Of a stretch of 38,061 bases of DNA, positions 33,029-38,061 are shown piece after piece. The position numbers were made by a program, and so were the translations under genes. Position 1 is the first letter of the stretch, and every line of letters begins with the position of its first letter. This stretch comes from Lentisphaeria bacterium (GTDB taxonomy: Bacteria > Verrucomicrobiota > Lentisphaeria > Victivallales > Victivallaceae), in the NCBI GenBank assembly GCA_017508285.1, contig JAFVZG010000042.1, positions 1 through 38,061 of the forward strand. The letters run 5' to 3'. Under the pieces are notes generated by a model. That model saw only the letters and a program-made list of their open reading frames with translations. It had not been told where the DNA came from and did no database searches.

Positions 33029-33871
33029 ATGTTTGATTTTTCCGGATTTCTCAACTCTTCACGGCGCCCCAAAATAATGGGGATAGTCAATGCCAGCGGC
33101 GACTCATTCAGCGGCAATGGTCACATGACCGCTGATGCCGCGCTGGCACGCGCCCTGGCGCATCTGGATGGCGGCGCAGATATTCTGGATATCGGCGGCG
33201 AATCCACCCGTCCGGGGGCAAAAGAAATATCAAGCGATCTGGAAATAAACCGGGTACTGCCGGTGATCCGCAACCTGAAAAAAGTCCATCCGGAAATTAT
33301 TCTCAGTGTCGATACCCGCCACGCTGAAGTGGCACGGGCGGCTCTGACGGCAGGTGTGGAGATCATCAACGATGTCTCAATGCTCCGCAAATCACCGGAA
33401 ACCGCAGAGTTGGCTGCCGAATTTCAGGCAGGTTTGATAATCTCCCACTCCAGAGGGACTCCGGAAAACATGAGTTCACCGGAGTTCTGTGCCTACGATA
33501 TCCCGGTAGCAGAGGCGGTGGCGGCAGAGTTGGCAGAAGCCAGAGAAAAAGCGATCGCCGCCGGAGTGGATGCCGGTAATATCATGCTCGATCCCGGTTT
33601 CGGATTTGCCAAGACCCCGGAACAGTGCTGGGAGTTGGCAGAAGGTCTGGAAAAGATCTGCCCGTTATCGCAACTGTTGATCGGAGTTTCCAGAAAGTCG
33701 TTTCTTGGAGCATTGACCGGAGAGAGTGATCCAGCCGGGCGCAATGCGGAAACTCTGGCTCTGGAATTGCTGCTTGCCCAAAGAGGCGTGGGAATGATCC
33801 GCACTCACGGAGTAAAAGATTTGCACCGGGCTTTGCTGGTACTGGAAAAATGCCGGAAGGAGGATTTCTGA
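33029..33871 (+). CDS. folP: Dihydropteroate synthase
   Basis: FolP joins pterin pyrophosphate and p-aminobenzoate in folate synthesis and is the target of sulfonamides. The 280-residue protein has the expected series of motifs: MGIVNASGDSFSGNG (normally MGxxNxTPDSFxDGG), DIGGESTRPGAK, SVDTRHAEVARAAL, INDVSML, LDPGFGFAKT, and GVSRKSFLGALTG. The Thr-Pro of the first motif is replaced by Ala-Ser-Gly, a minor departure in a loop that closes over the active site. It lies two bases after gyrA, and its stop overlaps the cdaA start (TGATG). The last codons also hold the AAGGAGG binding site of cdaA. Confidence 0.92.
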   Translation: MFDFSGFLNSSRRPKIMGIVNASGDSFSGNGHMTADAALARALAHLDGGADILDIGGESTRPGAKEISSDLEINRVLPVIRNLKKVHPEIILSVDTRHAEVARAALTAGVEIINDVSMLRKSPETAELAAEFQAGLIISHSRGTPENMSSPEFCAYDIPVAEAVAAELAEAREKAIAAGVDAGNIMLDPGFGFAKTPEQCWELAEGLEKICPLSQLLIGVSRKSFLGALTGESDPAGRNAETLALELLLAQRGVGMIRTHGVKDLHRALLVLEKCRKEDF

Positions 33872-34710
33872 TGCCGATAATTGAATTTCTCACCGATTGG
33901 CGCGCTATTTTGCAGATAGTTATCCTCTTTTTGCTGGTCTATCTGGCGATGTACCATTTGCGCAATACTCACGGCTCGCTGGTCATGGGGGGCTTGCTGA
34001 TGTTCATCGGTTCATTATGGTTTTTGGCACAAACGCTTGACCTTGATGTGATATCCCGCCTGCTGGAAATGGTGCTCGGTTCACTGTTTTTGATGCTGAT
34101 GATCATTTTTCAGCCGGAATTGCGCCGGGCACTGGCGCGGCTGGGCAGTTTTGCCATCTGGGAAAACCGCAGACGGCGGGAGTTGATCAATGAGGTGATC
34201 AATGCCATGCTCAATATGTCCAAACGCAAATGCGGAGCGATCGTGGTGATCGAATGCAAGGTAAGATTGCAGACCCTGATCGATGATGCGATAATGCTGG
34301 ATGCCAAAGTAAATGCATTGATGCTGGAGTCGATCTTTTATCCGAATTCGCCGCTGCACGACGGCGCGGTGATAATCAGGGATGACCGGATCGTGGCGGC
34401 ACGGGCGATATTGCCCCTTTCCGGCTCGGAATCGATCTCCAAACAACTGGGGACAAGACACCGGGCGGCATTGGGAATTTCCGAAGAGAGCGATGCGGTG
34501 ACGGTGATGGTTTCCGAAGAAAGCGGGTCGATAAGCATCGGTCACGACGGGAAACTGCACCGGGATCTTTCGCTGGCGGAATTGCATAAAATGCTTGATA
34601 AACTGATCGTGCAGAAAGATGCCGGAGAACTGGATGAAACGATCCAGGAGTTGAATGATACTGATTTGAATGAAGAAACTTCAACCAATGAAAATGGAGG
34701 TGAAGCATGA
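33871..34710 (+). CDS. cdaA: Diadenylate cyclase CdaA (DisA_N domain)
   Basis: CdaA makes cyclic di-AMP from two ATP at the membrane. Three N-terminal membrane segments (about 12-30, 36-57, 62-80) precede the DAC domain, which has the catalytic DGA motif at 164-166 within SPLHDGAVII and RHR at 196-198 within GTRHRAALGIS. The order and spacing match Bacillus CdaA. The ATG at 33871 overlaps the folP stop and has AAGGAGG at ideal spacing; an in-frame ATG at 33850 is disfavoured because it lies before that site. A C-terminal Glu/Asn/Asp-rich tail of about 30 residues is extra. The next gene, a YbbR protein, overlaps by four bases, reproducing the cdaA-cdaR pairing known in Firmicutes. Confidence 0.92.
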   Translation: MPIIEFLTDWRAILQIVILFLLVYLAMYHLRNTHGSLVMGGLLMFIGSLWFLAQTLDLDVISRLLEMVLGSLFLMLMIIFQPELRRALARLGSFAIWENRRRRELINEVINAMLNMSKRKCGAIVVIECKVRLQTLIDDAIMLDAKVNALMLESIFYPNSPLHDGAVIIRDDRIVAARAILPLSGSESISKQLGTRHRAALGISEESDAVTVMVSEESGSISIGHDGKLHRDLSLAELHKMLDKLIVQKDAGELDETIQELNDTDLNEETSTNENGGEA

Positions 34711-35690
34711 GTGCATTTCTGACCTTCCTTTTCAAAGATCCCCTGCGCAAATTGATCGCGCTGTCACTGACAATAGTGCTTTATGCGGTGCTCAATGAAG
34801 GTAAACAGAGGGAAGAGATCATTGATGGTATTCCGATGCAGATAAAGTGCGATGATGATGTCTTTCTGCCGGAAATAAACCGCAGCTGTTCAGTGCGCCT
34901 GACTGTCAGGGGGTCGGAAAGTACGATCAAAAAATTGACCAAACAGGATATTCAAGGAACAATAATGCTTTCACGCAACACCCCCGGATTTGCTTCCGGG
35001 AGGGTGACTTTGCGCTTCAATCCCAAAGATTTTGCAGTACCAAGAGGAGTGGAAGTAATAAGAGTGGAGCATCCTCAGGAATTGACGATCCCGGTGCAGC
35101 GCAAGATTTCCCGGATGCTGCCGATCCATCCGGAAACTTTCGGCAGTGTACAATCCGGCTGGGTTTGCAATGAAGTCACCGCTGAACCGGCAAGCGTGAT
35201 CGTCTCAGGGCCGGAAAGATTGGTCAACACTCTGCGTGAAGTGGTGACTGAGCCGCTGAATATTGATGGAGAAACGGTAAGTTTCAGCAAAAAAGGTTTG
35301 ATATTGAAAAATCCTCAGCCGGAAGAGTTGAGTTTCGATCTGTCATCTGCCGAGGTGTCAGTAAAGATAGTCAGGATACCGGATGTGCCGAGAAAATTCA
35401 CGGATATTCCGGTCAGATGCATGGTTCCTCCGGGGAATTCGGTGCAGCTGCAGCCGGATAAAAAGATCGTCACAGTCACCGTTTCCGGCAGACAGAGTGC
35501 CATCAATAAGATATCGGGTAAGGATATTACGGTTTTTGCCGATCTGAGCGATCCGAAATATCAGCTGCCGGGCGAACACCTGCTGCAGCTGCAGGCGGTT
35601 TTGAATAATCCGCAGGATAATTTACGGATAAGTGCAATAGAACCGAAGGAAATAAAGATAAAAAGTGTGGTTGCTGTCGAAAAAAAGTGA
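34707..35690 (+). CDS. YbbR-domain protein, CdaR-like
   Basis: A 327-residue membrane-anchored protein with one N-terminal membrane segment (about 15-30) and repeated YbbR domains exposed outside. Repeats are visible at about 35-110, 115-200 and 215-310, with recurring I-P-V and V-x-V-x-G strands such as VTVSGRQSAINKISGKDI. In Firmicutes the cotranscribed YbbR protein CdaR modulates CdaA activity, and the same gene order with a four-base overlap is seen here. The functional link is therefore well supported by context, although I cannot judge whether it activates or inhibits. Confidence 0.85.
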   Translation: MSAFLTFLFKDPLRKLIALSLTIVLYAVLNEGKQREEIIDGIPMQIKCDDDVFLPEINRSCSVRLTVRGSESTIKKLTKQDIQGTIMLSRNTPGFASGRVTLRFNPKDFAVPRGVEVIRVEHPQELTIPVQRKISRMLPIHPETFGSVQSGWVCNEVTAEPASVIVSGPERLVNTLREVVTEPLNIDGETVSFSKKGLILKNPQPEELSFDLSSAEVSVKIVRIPDVPRKFTDIPVRCMVPPGNSVQLQPDKKIVTVTVSGRQSAINKISGKDITVFADLSDPKYQLPGEHLLQLQAVLNNPQDNLRISAIEPKEIKIKSVVAVEKK

Positions 35691-35854: not shown

Positions 35855-37093
35855 ATGGTAATCAAAAAACTTAATTCGATCTTTCACAAACACAGCCGTG
35901 TCCTGCTGCTGATACTGGCGGTATTGGTGATCATTCCCTTTGTTCTGGGCGATTTCCGCGGCGGCGGCTGCGATGACCCGCAGTCGATGACAGTAGGTAC
36001 GATGAATGGTAAAAAGGTGAAAGTTTCAGACTTGCGGCAATTCGGGCAGAGCCTTTCTCTGCTTGGCAACTCCAACCGGCAGGATGACTGGCAGTCACTT
36101 TTCAATGCGTATTGTCTGGTAAAATATGCAGAAGACAACGGGGTGGTCGTGACCGATGATGAAGCAGCAGAAGAGTTGCGCAAAATTTTCAGCAAAGACG
36201 GTAAATTTTCCAAGGCCGACTATGACAAGTTTTTATCCGGCCGCCGGTTGACCAACAGCGATGTGGTGGAGTCATTGCGTTTGAATATGACGATCCAGAA
36301 ACTTCAGCAGACAGTGTGCCGCGGAGTGGTGGTCACCGATGATGAGGTGAAGAGTTTTTATGAATTGGCATCGCCGGGATTTGATTTGGAAATTTGCGCG
36401 ATCCCGCTGAAAAAATTCAGAGTCGATGAGCCGAAAGAGAAGGATCTCAAAGAGTTTTACAGCCAGATCAGCAAATTCAACCCGAATTATCCGGCTTACG
36501 ATGAGGTAAAGAAGAACCTTCCGGAAATGTACAAGAGCGTCAAACAGCGGGAAACTGCAGTCAAACTGGCAGAGCAGGAGATCGCGAAACTTTTGAAGCT
36601 CAATGGTGAAAAACGCGCCCAGGCATTTGCGGCATTGAAGTTTGATCATAAGAAATTGAGCATTCCCGCCAATGCTGCGGAGATGGAAAAGATCAATAAG
36701 GATATGAATTTGATGCAGGTTTACCAGAGTTTCTGTCTGGATCTGCCGAAAAATCTGGCGATGATCCCGCAAATCGAAAAGAGCAATAATCCTCAGCTGC
36801 TCCAGTTTATGCTGGGTCAGATCAATCAGGCGTTGATCGGCGGTTTGCCGCAGGAATTGAGCCTGCAAAGCGGAGATATCGCGCGACCGGTAAATCTTTC
36901 TGATGCAGTGGCATTGGTCAGAGTGGTCAAACGGAAACCGGCGGCACTGCAGGAGTTTGCCAAAAATCAGGAGATACTGCGCAAATTGATGACCAATTTG
37001 AAAGAACAGCTGGTATTTCAGGATTTCTACAATGAGTTGATGCGCCAGTGCGTATTCACGATGGAAACGGCGGAAAACAAACAGGCTGAGTAA
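35855..37093 (+). CDS. SurA-N/PpiD-like membrane-anchored chaperone without a PPIase domain
   Basis: A 412-residue protein with an N-terminal membrane anchor (about 15-32, VLLLILAVLVIIPFVLG). A SurA-N-type chaperone domain follows (about 45-165), with GTMNGKKVKVSDL, then DDEAAEELRKIFSKDGKFSKADYDKFL, as in PpiD. The remaining part is helical and charged. I see no parvulin peptidyl-prolyl isomerase motif, so it may be a chaperone that retains only the substrate-binding fold. The ATG has AGGAGA upstream. The stop codon TAA shares its last A with the speD start, so speD is translationally coupled, an odd partner with no known mechanistic link. Confidence 0.78.
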   Translation: MVIKKLNSIFHKHSRVLLLILAVLVIIPFVLGDFRGGGCDDPQSMTVGTMNGKKVKVSDLRQFGQSLSLLGNSNRQDDWQSLFNAYCLVKYAEDNGVVVTDDEAAEELRKIFSKDGKFSKADYDKFLSGRRLTNSDVVESLRLNMTIQKLQQTVCRGVVVTDDEVKSFYELASPGFDLEICAIPLKKFRVDEPKEKDLKEFYSQISKFNPNYPAYDEVKKNLPEMYKSVKQRETAVKLAEQEIAKLLKLNGEKRAQAFAALKFDHKKLSIPANAAEMEKINKDMNLMQVYQSFCLDLPKNLAMIPQIEKSNNPQLLQFMLGQINQALIGGLPQELSLQSGDIARPVNLSDAVALVRVVKRKPAALQEFAKNQEILRKLMTNLKEQLVFQDFYNELMRQCVFTMETAENKQAE

Positions 37094-37905
37094 TGTCAGA
37101 AACAGCAAAAGATCATCTCTCCGGGGCGATTGCCCTCGGCAGACAGATGACTGTGGAGTTTTACGACTGCGCGGCAGATATTCTGGCGGATGCAAAGCGT
37201 CTGGAAGAGGTGTTCCTGACGGCGGCGCAGAGGTCAGGAGCGCATGTGGTGAACTCCACATTCCACTCTTTTGAACCGCAAGGGGTAAGCGGAGTGGTTG
37301 TAATATCCGAATCTCATTTTGCAGTACATGCCTGGCCGGAACATGACTATGCGGCAGTGGATCTTTTCACCTGCGGATCAGGAGTAGACTTCACAGCGGC
37401 GGTAAAGGCACTGGCAGAGGGGATGAATTCCGGACAATGGATAATTTCGAGCATGGTCAACCGGGGGATACTTCACGAGAGCGGTCAGATCGAAAGACTG
37501 GTACCGGTGGTGGAGAACGAGAGGAACTGCGGATTGCAGTTATCTTGGAAAGAGAGGTTTGACCGGTCGGCTGCAAGAGCGATATCCACATGTATAGATT
37601 TGTATAATTGCAAAAAATTGCCGGTAAAAGAGGAAGAATGCCGGAAAACAGCCGGTGAATTGAGCGACAAACTGTCATTGACTTCCGGAAAGGGGAAATG
37701 GGTATTTATTTCCGGAGAAAGGGAGAATGGGTTTACATTCTGCGGAGATACGGGGAGAATCTCCGGGACGATCAACCCGGAATCAGGGGCGGTATCGCTG
37801 GATATATTTAAGGATGGCTTTTTTGATCCCCGCCCGGTGGCAGAATTTGCGATGACAGTTTTTGAAGGGGGCTACTACCGGATGCAGGTACAAATAAGAC
37901 AGTAA
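37093..37905 (+). CDS. speD: S-adenosylmethionine decarboxylase proenzyme with a second SpeD-like domain
   Basis: The first 125 residues are a bacterial-type SpeD, which self-cleaves at ISES to form a pyruvoyl group at Ser74. His79 (FAVHAWPE) and Cys94 (DLFTCG) lie 5 and 20 residues further on, exactly the Ser63/His68/Cys83 spacing of Thermotoga SpeD. It supplies decarboxylated AdoMet for spermidine. At 270 residues it is twice the usual 120-140. Residues 160-270 repeat the same plan: CIDLYNC resembles TVEFYDC, and the later SLDIFKDGFFDPRPVAEFA matches the VDLFTCGSGVDFTAAVKALA strand-helix, but Ser, His and Cys are all lost. This looks like a duplicated, inactive domain. Relatives of SpeD can have altered substrates, so ornithine or arginine decarboxylation is an alternative. 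It is followed by a strong terminator. Confidence 0.85.
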   Translation: MSETAKDHLSGAIALGRQMTVEFYDCAADILADAKRLEEVFLTAAQRSGAHVVNSTFHSFEPQGVSGVVVISESHFAVHAWPEHDYAAVDLFTCGSGVDFTAAVKALAEGMNSGQWIISSMVNRGILHESGQIERLVPVVENERNCGLQLSWKERFDRSAARAISTCIDLYNCKKLPVKEEECRKTAGELSDKLSLTSGKGKWVFISGERENGFTFCGDTGRISGTINPESGAVSLDIFKDGFFDPRPVAEFAMTVFEGGYYRMQVQIRQ

Positions 37906-37920
37906 ATATAAATATATTGA

Positions 37921-37958
37921 ACCCGTTTGCATAAAAAGTGCAGTCGGGTCTTTTTTTA
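37921..37958 (+). terminator. Intrinsic terminator after speD
   Basis: ACCCG at 37921 pairs with CGGGT ending at 37949, extended by an inner TGCA/TGCA pair across one mismatch and a G-T wobble, with a seven-base loop. Seven T residues follow at 37951-37957. Confidence 0.88.
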
Positions 37959-38061
37959 TCGGGGGGTGCGGGGGCAGAGCTCCTGCTAAAGGGCGGCAGC
38001 CCGTTATCGGGGGTGCGGGGGCAGAGCCCATGCAAAAGGGCGACAGCCCGTATCGGGGGTG
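37958..38061. repeat. GC-rich tandem repeat, period 46-48 bases, continuing past the window
   Basis: Two full units and the start of a third follow the speD terminator: copy 1 at 37958-38005, copy 2 at 38006-38051 and copy 3 from 38052. Each unit begins ATCGGGGG, then GTGCGGGGGCAGAGC, a variable CCATGC or TCCTGCT centre, AAAGGG and a CAGCCCG end. The GGGC...GCCC parts can form a short hairpin in each unit. The copies differ at about six positions plus small indels. No coding signal is visible. It resembles the intergenic GC-rich repeats found after genes in several gut bacteria. Confidence 0.8.

Follow-up and report, generated by a model that had tools for sequence, protein, structure and literature searches.

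A SpeD protein with a catalytically dead second half

How does a SpeD protein come to carry a second half without catalytic residues, and what is that half for? The question is raised by a gene near one end of the window, a stretch of 38,061 nucleotides from a Lentisphaeria bacterium (GCA_017508285.1, contig JAFVZG010000042.1), whose 270-aa product consists of two consecutive AdoMetDC-type domains (Table 1). Proteins of this kind were described in 2023 as SpeD-SpeDC fusions by Li, Liang, Phillips and Michael in J Biol Chem (PMC10407285), and the window protein is a new example. In the fusion of Desulfotignum phosphitoxidans, the N-domain is an AdoMetDC and the C-domain an active pyruvoyl ornithine decarboxylase (ODC), SpeDC; mutation of S79 abolished the AdoMetDC activity and mutation of S229 the ODC activity (PMC10407285). 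ODC activity was measured in the fused Desulfotignum and Omnitrophica proteins, and was mapped to the C-domain in Desulfotignum (PMC10407285). Many Lentisphaerota fusions were reported to be without key C-domain residues, and degraded forms also occur in Desulfobacter latus (PMC10407285). The fusion of V. vadensis (271 aa) restored spermidine in an E. coli delta-speD strain and self-cleaved once, giving only two subunits, and fusions of its type were proposed as a model for the origin of eukaryotic class 2 AdoMetDC (PMC10407285).

Full-length homologs of the window protein, 36-68% identical to it, were found in Lentisphaerota, Kiritimatiellota MAGs and Desulfobacterales, and its closest relatives are MAGs with up to 68-70% identity. 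The protein is an ortholog of the V. vadensis fusion and belongs with other fusions of this type to a clade of Lentisphaerota. Its N-domain has the profile of a class 1b SpeD: PF02675 (AdoMet_dc) matched the whole protein at 6.7e-41 over residues 19-119, TIGR03330 (SAM_DCase_Bsu) matched at 2e-36 with 124.7 bits against a cut-off of 75.65, and the structural match to T. maritima 1tlu had a TM of 0.91 to the target. The N-domain Ser74, His79 and Cys94 were unchanged in 81 of 81 aligned fusion proteins.

The start of the fusion gene shares one base with the stop codon of the prolyl-isomerase-like gene, which is found directly 5' of the fusion gene in nearly all Lentisphaerota loci. The likely terminator is placed just 3' of the fusion gene and the contig end comes next, with no adjoining speE. 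A speE immediately downstream was stated for the first fusions noticed (PMC10407285), and we observed speE directly 3' of the fusion gene in the Desulfobacterales and in several Lentisphaerota, intact and dead alike. Most of the window's clade lacks this adjacency, so it cannot serve as a strict requirement for a degraded fusion.

Two further features of this part of the window were recorded. A 43-nt G-rich direct repeat in two copies (91%), 47 bases apart, occupies positions 37962-38051 and reaches the contig end. Positions 33850-35690, in the stretch that also contains the isomerase gene and speD, hold a gene for the diadenylate cyclase CdaA (TIGR00159), and an overlapping downstream ORF without an NCBIfam match lies where CdaR-type genes often sit.

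Table 1. Positions in the window of the fusion gene, its neighbours and the residues discussed in the text
Feature	Position	Strand	Basis
SurA/PpiD-like prolyl isomerase ORF, upstream	35855..37093	+	Weak peptidylprolyl isomerase profile matches
speD-speDC(degraded) fusion ORF, 270 aa	37093..37905	+	ORF call; full-length alignment of orthologs
N-terminal class 1b SpeD domain, residues 14-125	37132..37467	+	PF02675/TIGR03330; T. maritima 1tlu match
Ser74, predicted self-cleavage/pyruvoyl serine (T. maritima Ser63)	37312..37314	+	T. maritima alignment
His79 (T. maritima His68)	37327..37329	+	Alignment
Cys94 (T. maritima Cys83)	37372..37374	+	Alignment
Interdomain linker, residues 126-150	37468..37542	+	AlphaFold2 pLDDT, low confidence at 136-147
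C-terminal degraded SpeDC domain, residues 151-270	37543..37902	+	PF02675, Foldseek to 1tlu, viral SpeD2 clade
Gly221, position of second processing serine (Ser in intact fusions)	37753..37755	+	Alignment
Thr226, position of catalytic His	37768..37770	+	Alignment
Asp241, position of catalytic Cys	37813..37815	+	Alignment
Pro246-Arg247, invariant in intact and dead C-domains	37828..37833	+	Alignment
Glu251, invariant in Lentisphaerota set	37843..37845	+	Gln in two Desulfobacterales
Tyr262, invariant in C-domains	37876..37878	+	Alignment
Arg269, invariant in C-domains	37897..37899	+	Alignment
Likely intrinsic terminator, hairpin then T-run	37921..37957	+	Fold -14.3 kcal/mol, z -3.0, then 7-8 U

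The C-terminal half has an AdoMetDC fold

Taken alone, residues 143-270 matched PF02675 at 6e-5 with 23.8 bits against a cut-off of 25, and the NCBIfam search gave no match for the C-half. A profile of C-halves aligned with the N-halves at a hhalign E of 1.1e-6. AlphaFold2, run on the full-length window protein with 57 relatives, gave a model with a pLDDT of 88.5, in which strands (E) and helices (H) follow one another in matching order in the N-half (E16-24, H34-47, E52-59, E65-71, E74-81, E86-93, H100-111 and E115-124) and in the C-half (E163-171, H180-193, E202-207, E212-217, E221-228, E233-241, H246-256 and E261-269). The C-half alone was modeled with a pLDDT of 93.3, and the best PDB match of this model in Foldseek was T. 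maritima AdoMetDC 1tlu (TM 0.72/0.78), with Aquifex AdoMetDC also among the best, followed by potato and human AdoMetDC. A chance repeat or an unrelated C-terminal fold is ruled out by the Pfam, hhalign, AlphaFold2 and PDB matches.

Each half alone resembled a half of class 2 AdoMetDC in the structure matches. The full-length model resembled the class 2 enzymes poorly, at a TM of 0.31 and an rmsd of 18.9 for potato and a TM of about 0.28 for human, and the class 2 AdoMetDC profiles in Pfam and NCBIfam had no match at E<=10. Within the fusion chain, the N-domain may pack face to face on the C-domain as the two halves do in class 2 structures (1mhm, 3ep4), although the poor full-length match does not confirm this.

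An earlier note on this DNA had proposed a SpeD carrying a second, catalytically dead AdoMetDC-type domain that repeats the layout of the first. The ORF, Pfam and the fold agree with this proposal: the C-terminal fold is predicted to be AdoMetDC-like, AdoMet_dc was the best family in the C-half profile search with no better match elsewhere, and the elements of the two modeled halves come in the same order. The note had also stated that Ser74, His79 and Cys94 have no equivalent in the C-half. The catalytic residues are indeed absent, but the aligned positions exist and are taken by Gly221, Thr226 and Asp241.

Loss of the catalytic triad and constraint on the dead half

In the alignment, the processing serine and the catalytic His and Cys expected of SpeDC are absent from the window C-domain. 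The register of the C-domain is fixed because the 150-residue spacing between the two serines of L059 (Desulfotignum sp.) recurs in D. phosphitoxidans between S79 and S229, the two processing serines that were mutated (PMC10407285). With serine, histidine and cysteine lost in the window lineage, the C-domain would neither self-cleave nor decarboxylate. The C-domain Ser, His and Cys were kept in 10 Lentisphaerota/Kiritimatiellota loci and in 28 of the 31 Desulfobacterales loci, while the window protein and those of another 39 Lentisphaerota loci had lost the triad. The dead state in Lentisphaerota may or may not have had a single origin: all 40 of these dead sequences fell on one side of the best quick tree, with a support of 38, and the AU p for the Gly-type subset was 0.38. 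In the dead Desulfobacterales C-domains the triad was lost separately: Phe replaces Ser in L046 and in L077, whose source is a D. latus genome, and L056 has Ser in place of Cys.

Mean pairwise identities of the N- and C-halves were 0.69/0.68 and 0.83/0.82 in the intact groups, compared to 0.82/0.49 in the window's clade and 0.65/0.35 in the other dead Lentisphaerota. For three close pairs that had lost the triad, dN/dS of the C-half was about 0.06, 0.14 and 0.21. The two halves thus diverge equally as long as the C-half is catalytic, and a dead C-half diverges much faster, under purifying selection. Pro246, Arg247, Tyr262 and Arg269 were unchanged in 81 of 81 sequences and Glu251 in all but two Desulfobacterales; full length was retained in all 40 dead Lentisphaerota sequences, in a set chosen for full-length relatives. 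Since the dead half is relaxed yet under selection, a structural or regulatory role is favored over simple decay.

Origin of the C-domain and related phage genes

When the domains were placed separately in a tree, all C-domains, active and dead, joined unfused viral SpeD2 (100/98), and all N-domains joined T. maritima SpeD in the other group (99/97). As several branches were long and the tool warned on joins, only the main split was used. Among phages, the C-domain query matched only the Sinorhizobium phage SpeD group, which has been placed in the ODC clade, though one member works as AdoMetDC (PMC9992855); the N-domain query returned 149 records, mostly cyanophage AdoMetDC. Judged by these sequence comparisons, the C-domain comes from a separate SpeDC-like lineage and is no copy of the window SpeD. 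On account of the viral SpeD2 grouping and the ODC-active relatives, we take the window protein to be a SpeD-SpeDC fusion whose second half was later inactivated.

Five IMG/VR contigs gave strong matches, with 54% identity to the L059 C-domain, and two of them were examined in full. Both (L105:1160-2711 and L109:1354-2905) carry speD1 (109 aa), speD2 (127 aa) and speE as three ORFs with 4-base overlaps. Their SpeD2 is SpeDC-like, with SLISGH and FSC motifs intact, and their SpeD1 does not closely resemble the N-domain of the fusions. This phage speD1-speD2-speE operon corresponds to the fusion operon with its genes unfused, and may reflect either the ancestral arrangement or a later split.

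Other arrangements of SpeD homologs were also seen. Microcystis phage MaAM05 (L113) has two adjoining SpeD homologs, the second very divergent, and then speE, and two Desulfobacula-type contigs that also bear an intact fusion encode a separate 128-aa SpeD homolog (L050:735-1121 and L051:728-1114).

Polyamine pathway genes in the genome

SpeE is encoded in the window genome on another contig. In this MAG, which is 71% complete, we found no second SpeD, no agmatinase, agmatine deiminase or clear ornithine decarboxylase, and no putrescine source. Our search for the agmatine route found agmatinase or agmatine deiminase almost absent, and that for the carboxynorspermidine decarboxylase route gave no match over the cut-off. 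The window genome also encodes a LysA, and its one AAT-fold decarboxylase, a PF01276 protein beside a basic amino acid antiporter, had arginine decarboxylase as the closest match, at 1133.8 bits, under the cut-off of 1167. Compensation for the lost ODC by a PLP decarboxylase, scanned for with PF01276 and PF02784 over 50 genomes, was suggestive at first, but no conclusion was based on it, given this arginine decarboxylase match and the sampled PF02784 proteins being LysA or LysA-like. At L091:1-3348, an arginine-decarboxylase-like AAT-fold enzyme lies beside a basic amino acid/polyamine antiporter, probably as an acid-resistance pair.

What the dead half may do

The window protein is very probably best explained as a V. 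vadensis-type SpeD-SpeDC fusion whose degraded second half has been kept as a structural partner. The N-domain would cleave itself at Ser74 and generate the pyruvoyl group with which AdoMet would be decarboxylated for spermidine synthesis; by analogy with the V. vadensis ortholog, on which both were demonstrated, the window protein can be expected to have AdoMetDC activity and to undergo a single cleavage. The C-domain would go back to a SpeDC, a pyruvoyl ornithine decarboxylase, that was fused to SpeD. The folded C-domain would have been retained, replacing the second subunit that a single-domain SpeD needs, in the way that eukaryotic class 2 AdoMetDC uses its C-half. A role as structural partner is the most likely one for the dead C-domain.

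The dead domain could instead be a regulator, like the trypanosomatid prozyme or the human putrescine site: putrescine, ornithine or some other amine would still occupy the old ornithine pocket, and the domain would thereby adjust how the N-domain is processed or how active it is. We consider this unlikely. A dead AdoMetDC paralog does regulate in trypanosomes (PMC5201418), the charged R247, E251 and R269 persist in dead domains, and loss of ODC would make outside control of putrescine flux useful. However, the invariant residues are as conserved in active C-domains and may therefore be structural, and the pocket-proximal residues 200-235 are the ones that vary most within dead domains. More doubtful still is the specific idea of an amine sensor, with the dead SpeDC half controlling the SpeD half as a regulatory pseudoenzyme derived from a metabolic partner enzyme in one chain.

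That the C-half outpaces the N-half in divergence once the triad is gone, and that the triad positions vary freely across dead lineages, would fit a functionless, decaying remnant on its way to deletion. Such a remnant is nevertheless distinctly improbable in view of the dN/dS values well under 1 in three close pairs, the five invariant residues, the confident predicted fold and the full length kept by all 40 dead Lentisphaerota in the full-length-selected set. The earlier note had raised the possibility of an independent case parallel to the duplication and fusion believed to have given rise to eukaryotic AdoMetDC. A tandem duplication of bacterial speD with one half dying, independent of the SpeDC fusions, would account for the AdoMetDC fold common to both halves, but we give it hardly any credence: the C-domains group with viral SpeD2, apart from the N-domains of the same proteins; the phage matches of the two halves differ (Sinorhizobium phage SpeD, of the ODC clade, for the C query and almost exclusively AdoMetDC for the N query); and the orthologous C-domain of Desulfotignum is an active ODC (PMC10407285).

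Comparison with known systems

Domain identity, fold, triad loss, orthology, C-domain lineage and purifying selection were established in this analysis, and of its results the C-domain lineage, the unfused phage operon and the divergence pattern after triad loss are new. Fusions of this kind show a way in which two halves can come together in one bacterial chain, as they are in eukaryotic AdoMetDC; this model has been published before, and the window member by itself adds little to it. What the comparison adds is that the halves evolve at an equal rate while both are catalytic and that the dead half is much faster but non-neutral, together with a phage operon in which the same C-type gene is unfused, a plausible view of how the genes stood prior to fusion (or following a split). 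The parallel to class 2 AdoMetDC drawn in the earlier note thus holds as a formal likeness and not as a new case, both the architecture and the link having been published (PMC10407285).

The closest known system is the V. vadensis fusion (WP_116885763, 271 aa), which shares with the window protein its phylum, length, domain order, active N-domain motif and a C-domain without catalytic residues; the window protein comes from another species, has lost the whole C-triad (G/T/D) and has no speE after its gene. The fusions of Desulfotignum phosphitoxidans and Ca. Omnitrophica OLB16 are homologous to it from end to end, and the processing-site spacing of the Desulfotignum-type L059 is the same, but these two fusions, unlike the window protein, keep the C-domain Ser, His and Cys, are cleaved twice and decarboxylate ornithine. 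The class 1b AdoMetDC of T. maritima (1tlu, 1tmi, 3iwb-d) is alike in N-domain fold and active-site residues, at 46% identity, and shares its fold with the window C-domain as well, whereas it is a single-domain homodimer with two active sites. Among eukaryotes, the trypanosomatid AdoMetDC prozyme is likewise a catalytically dead AdoMetDC partner, yet it is a complete class 2 paralog in a chain of its own and acts as an activator in trans. Human and potato class 2 AdoMetDC have, like the window protein, two half-folds per chain, the first active and the second dead, but differ in their extra elements and in a sequence similarity that is not detectable.
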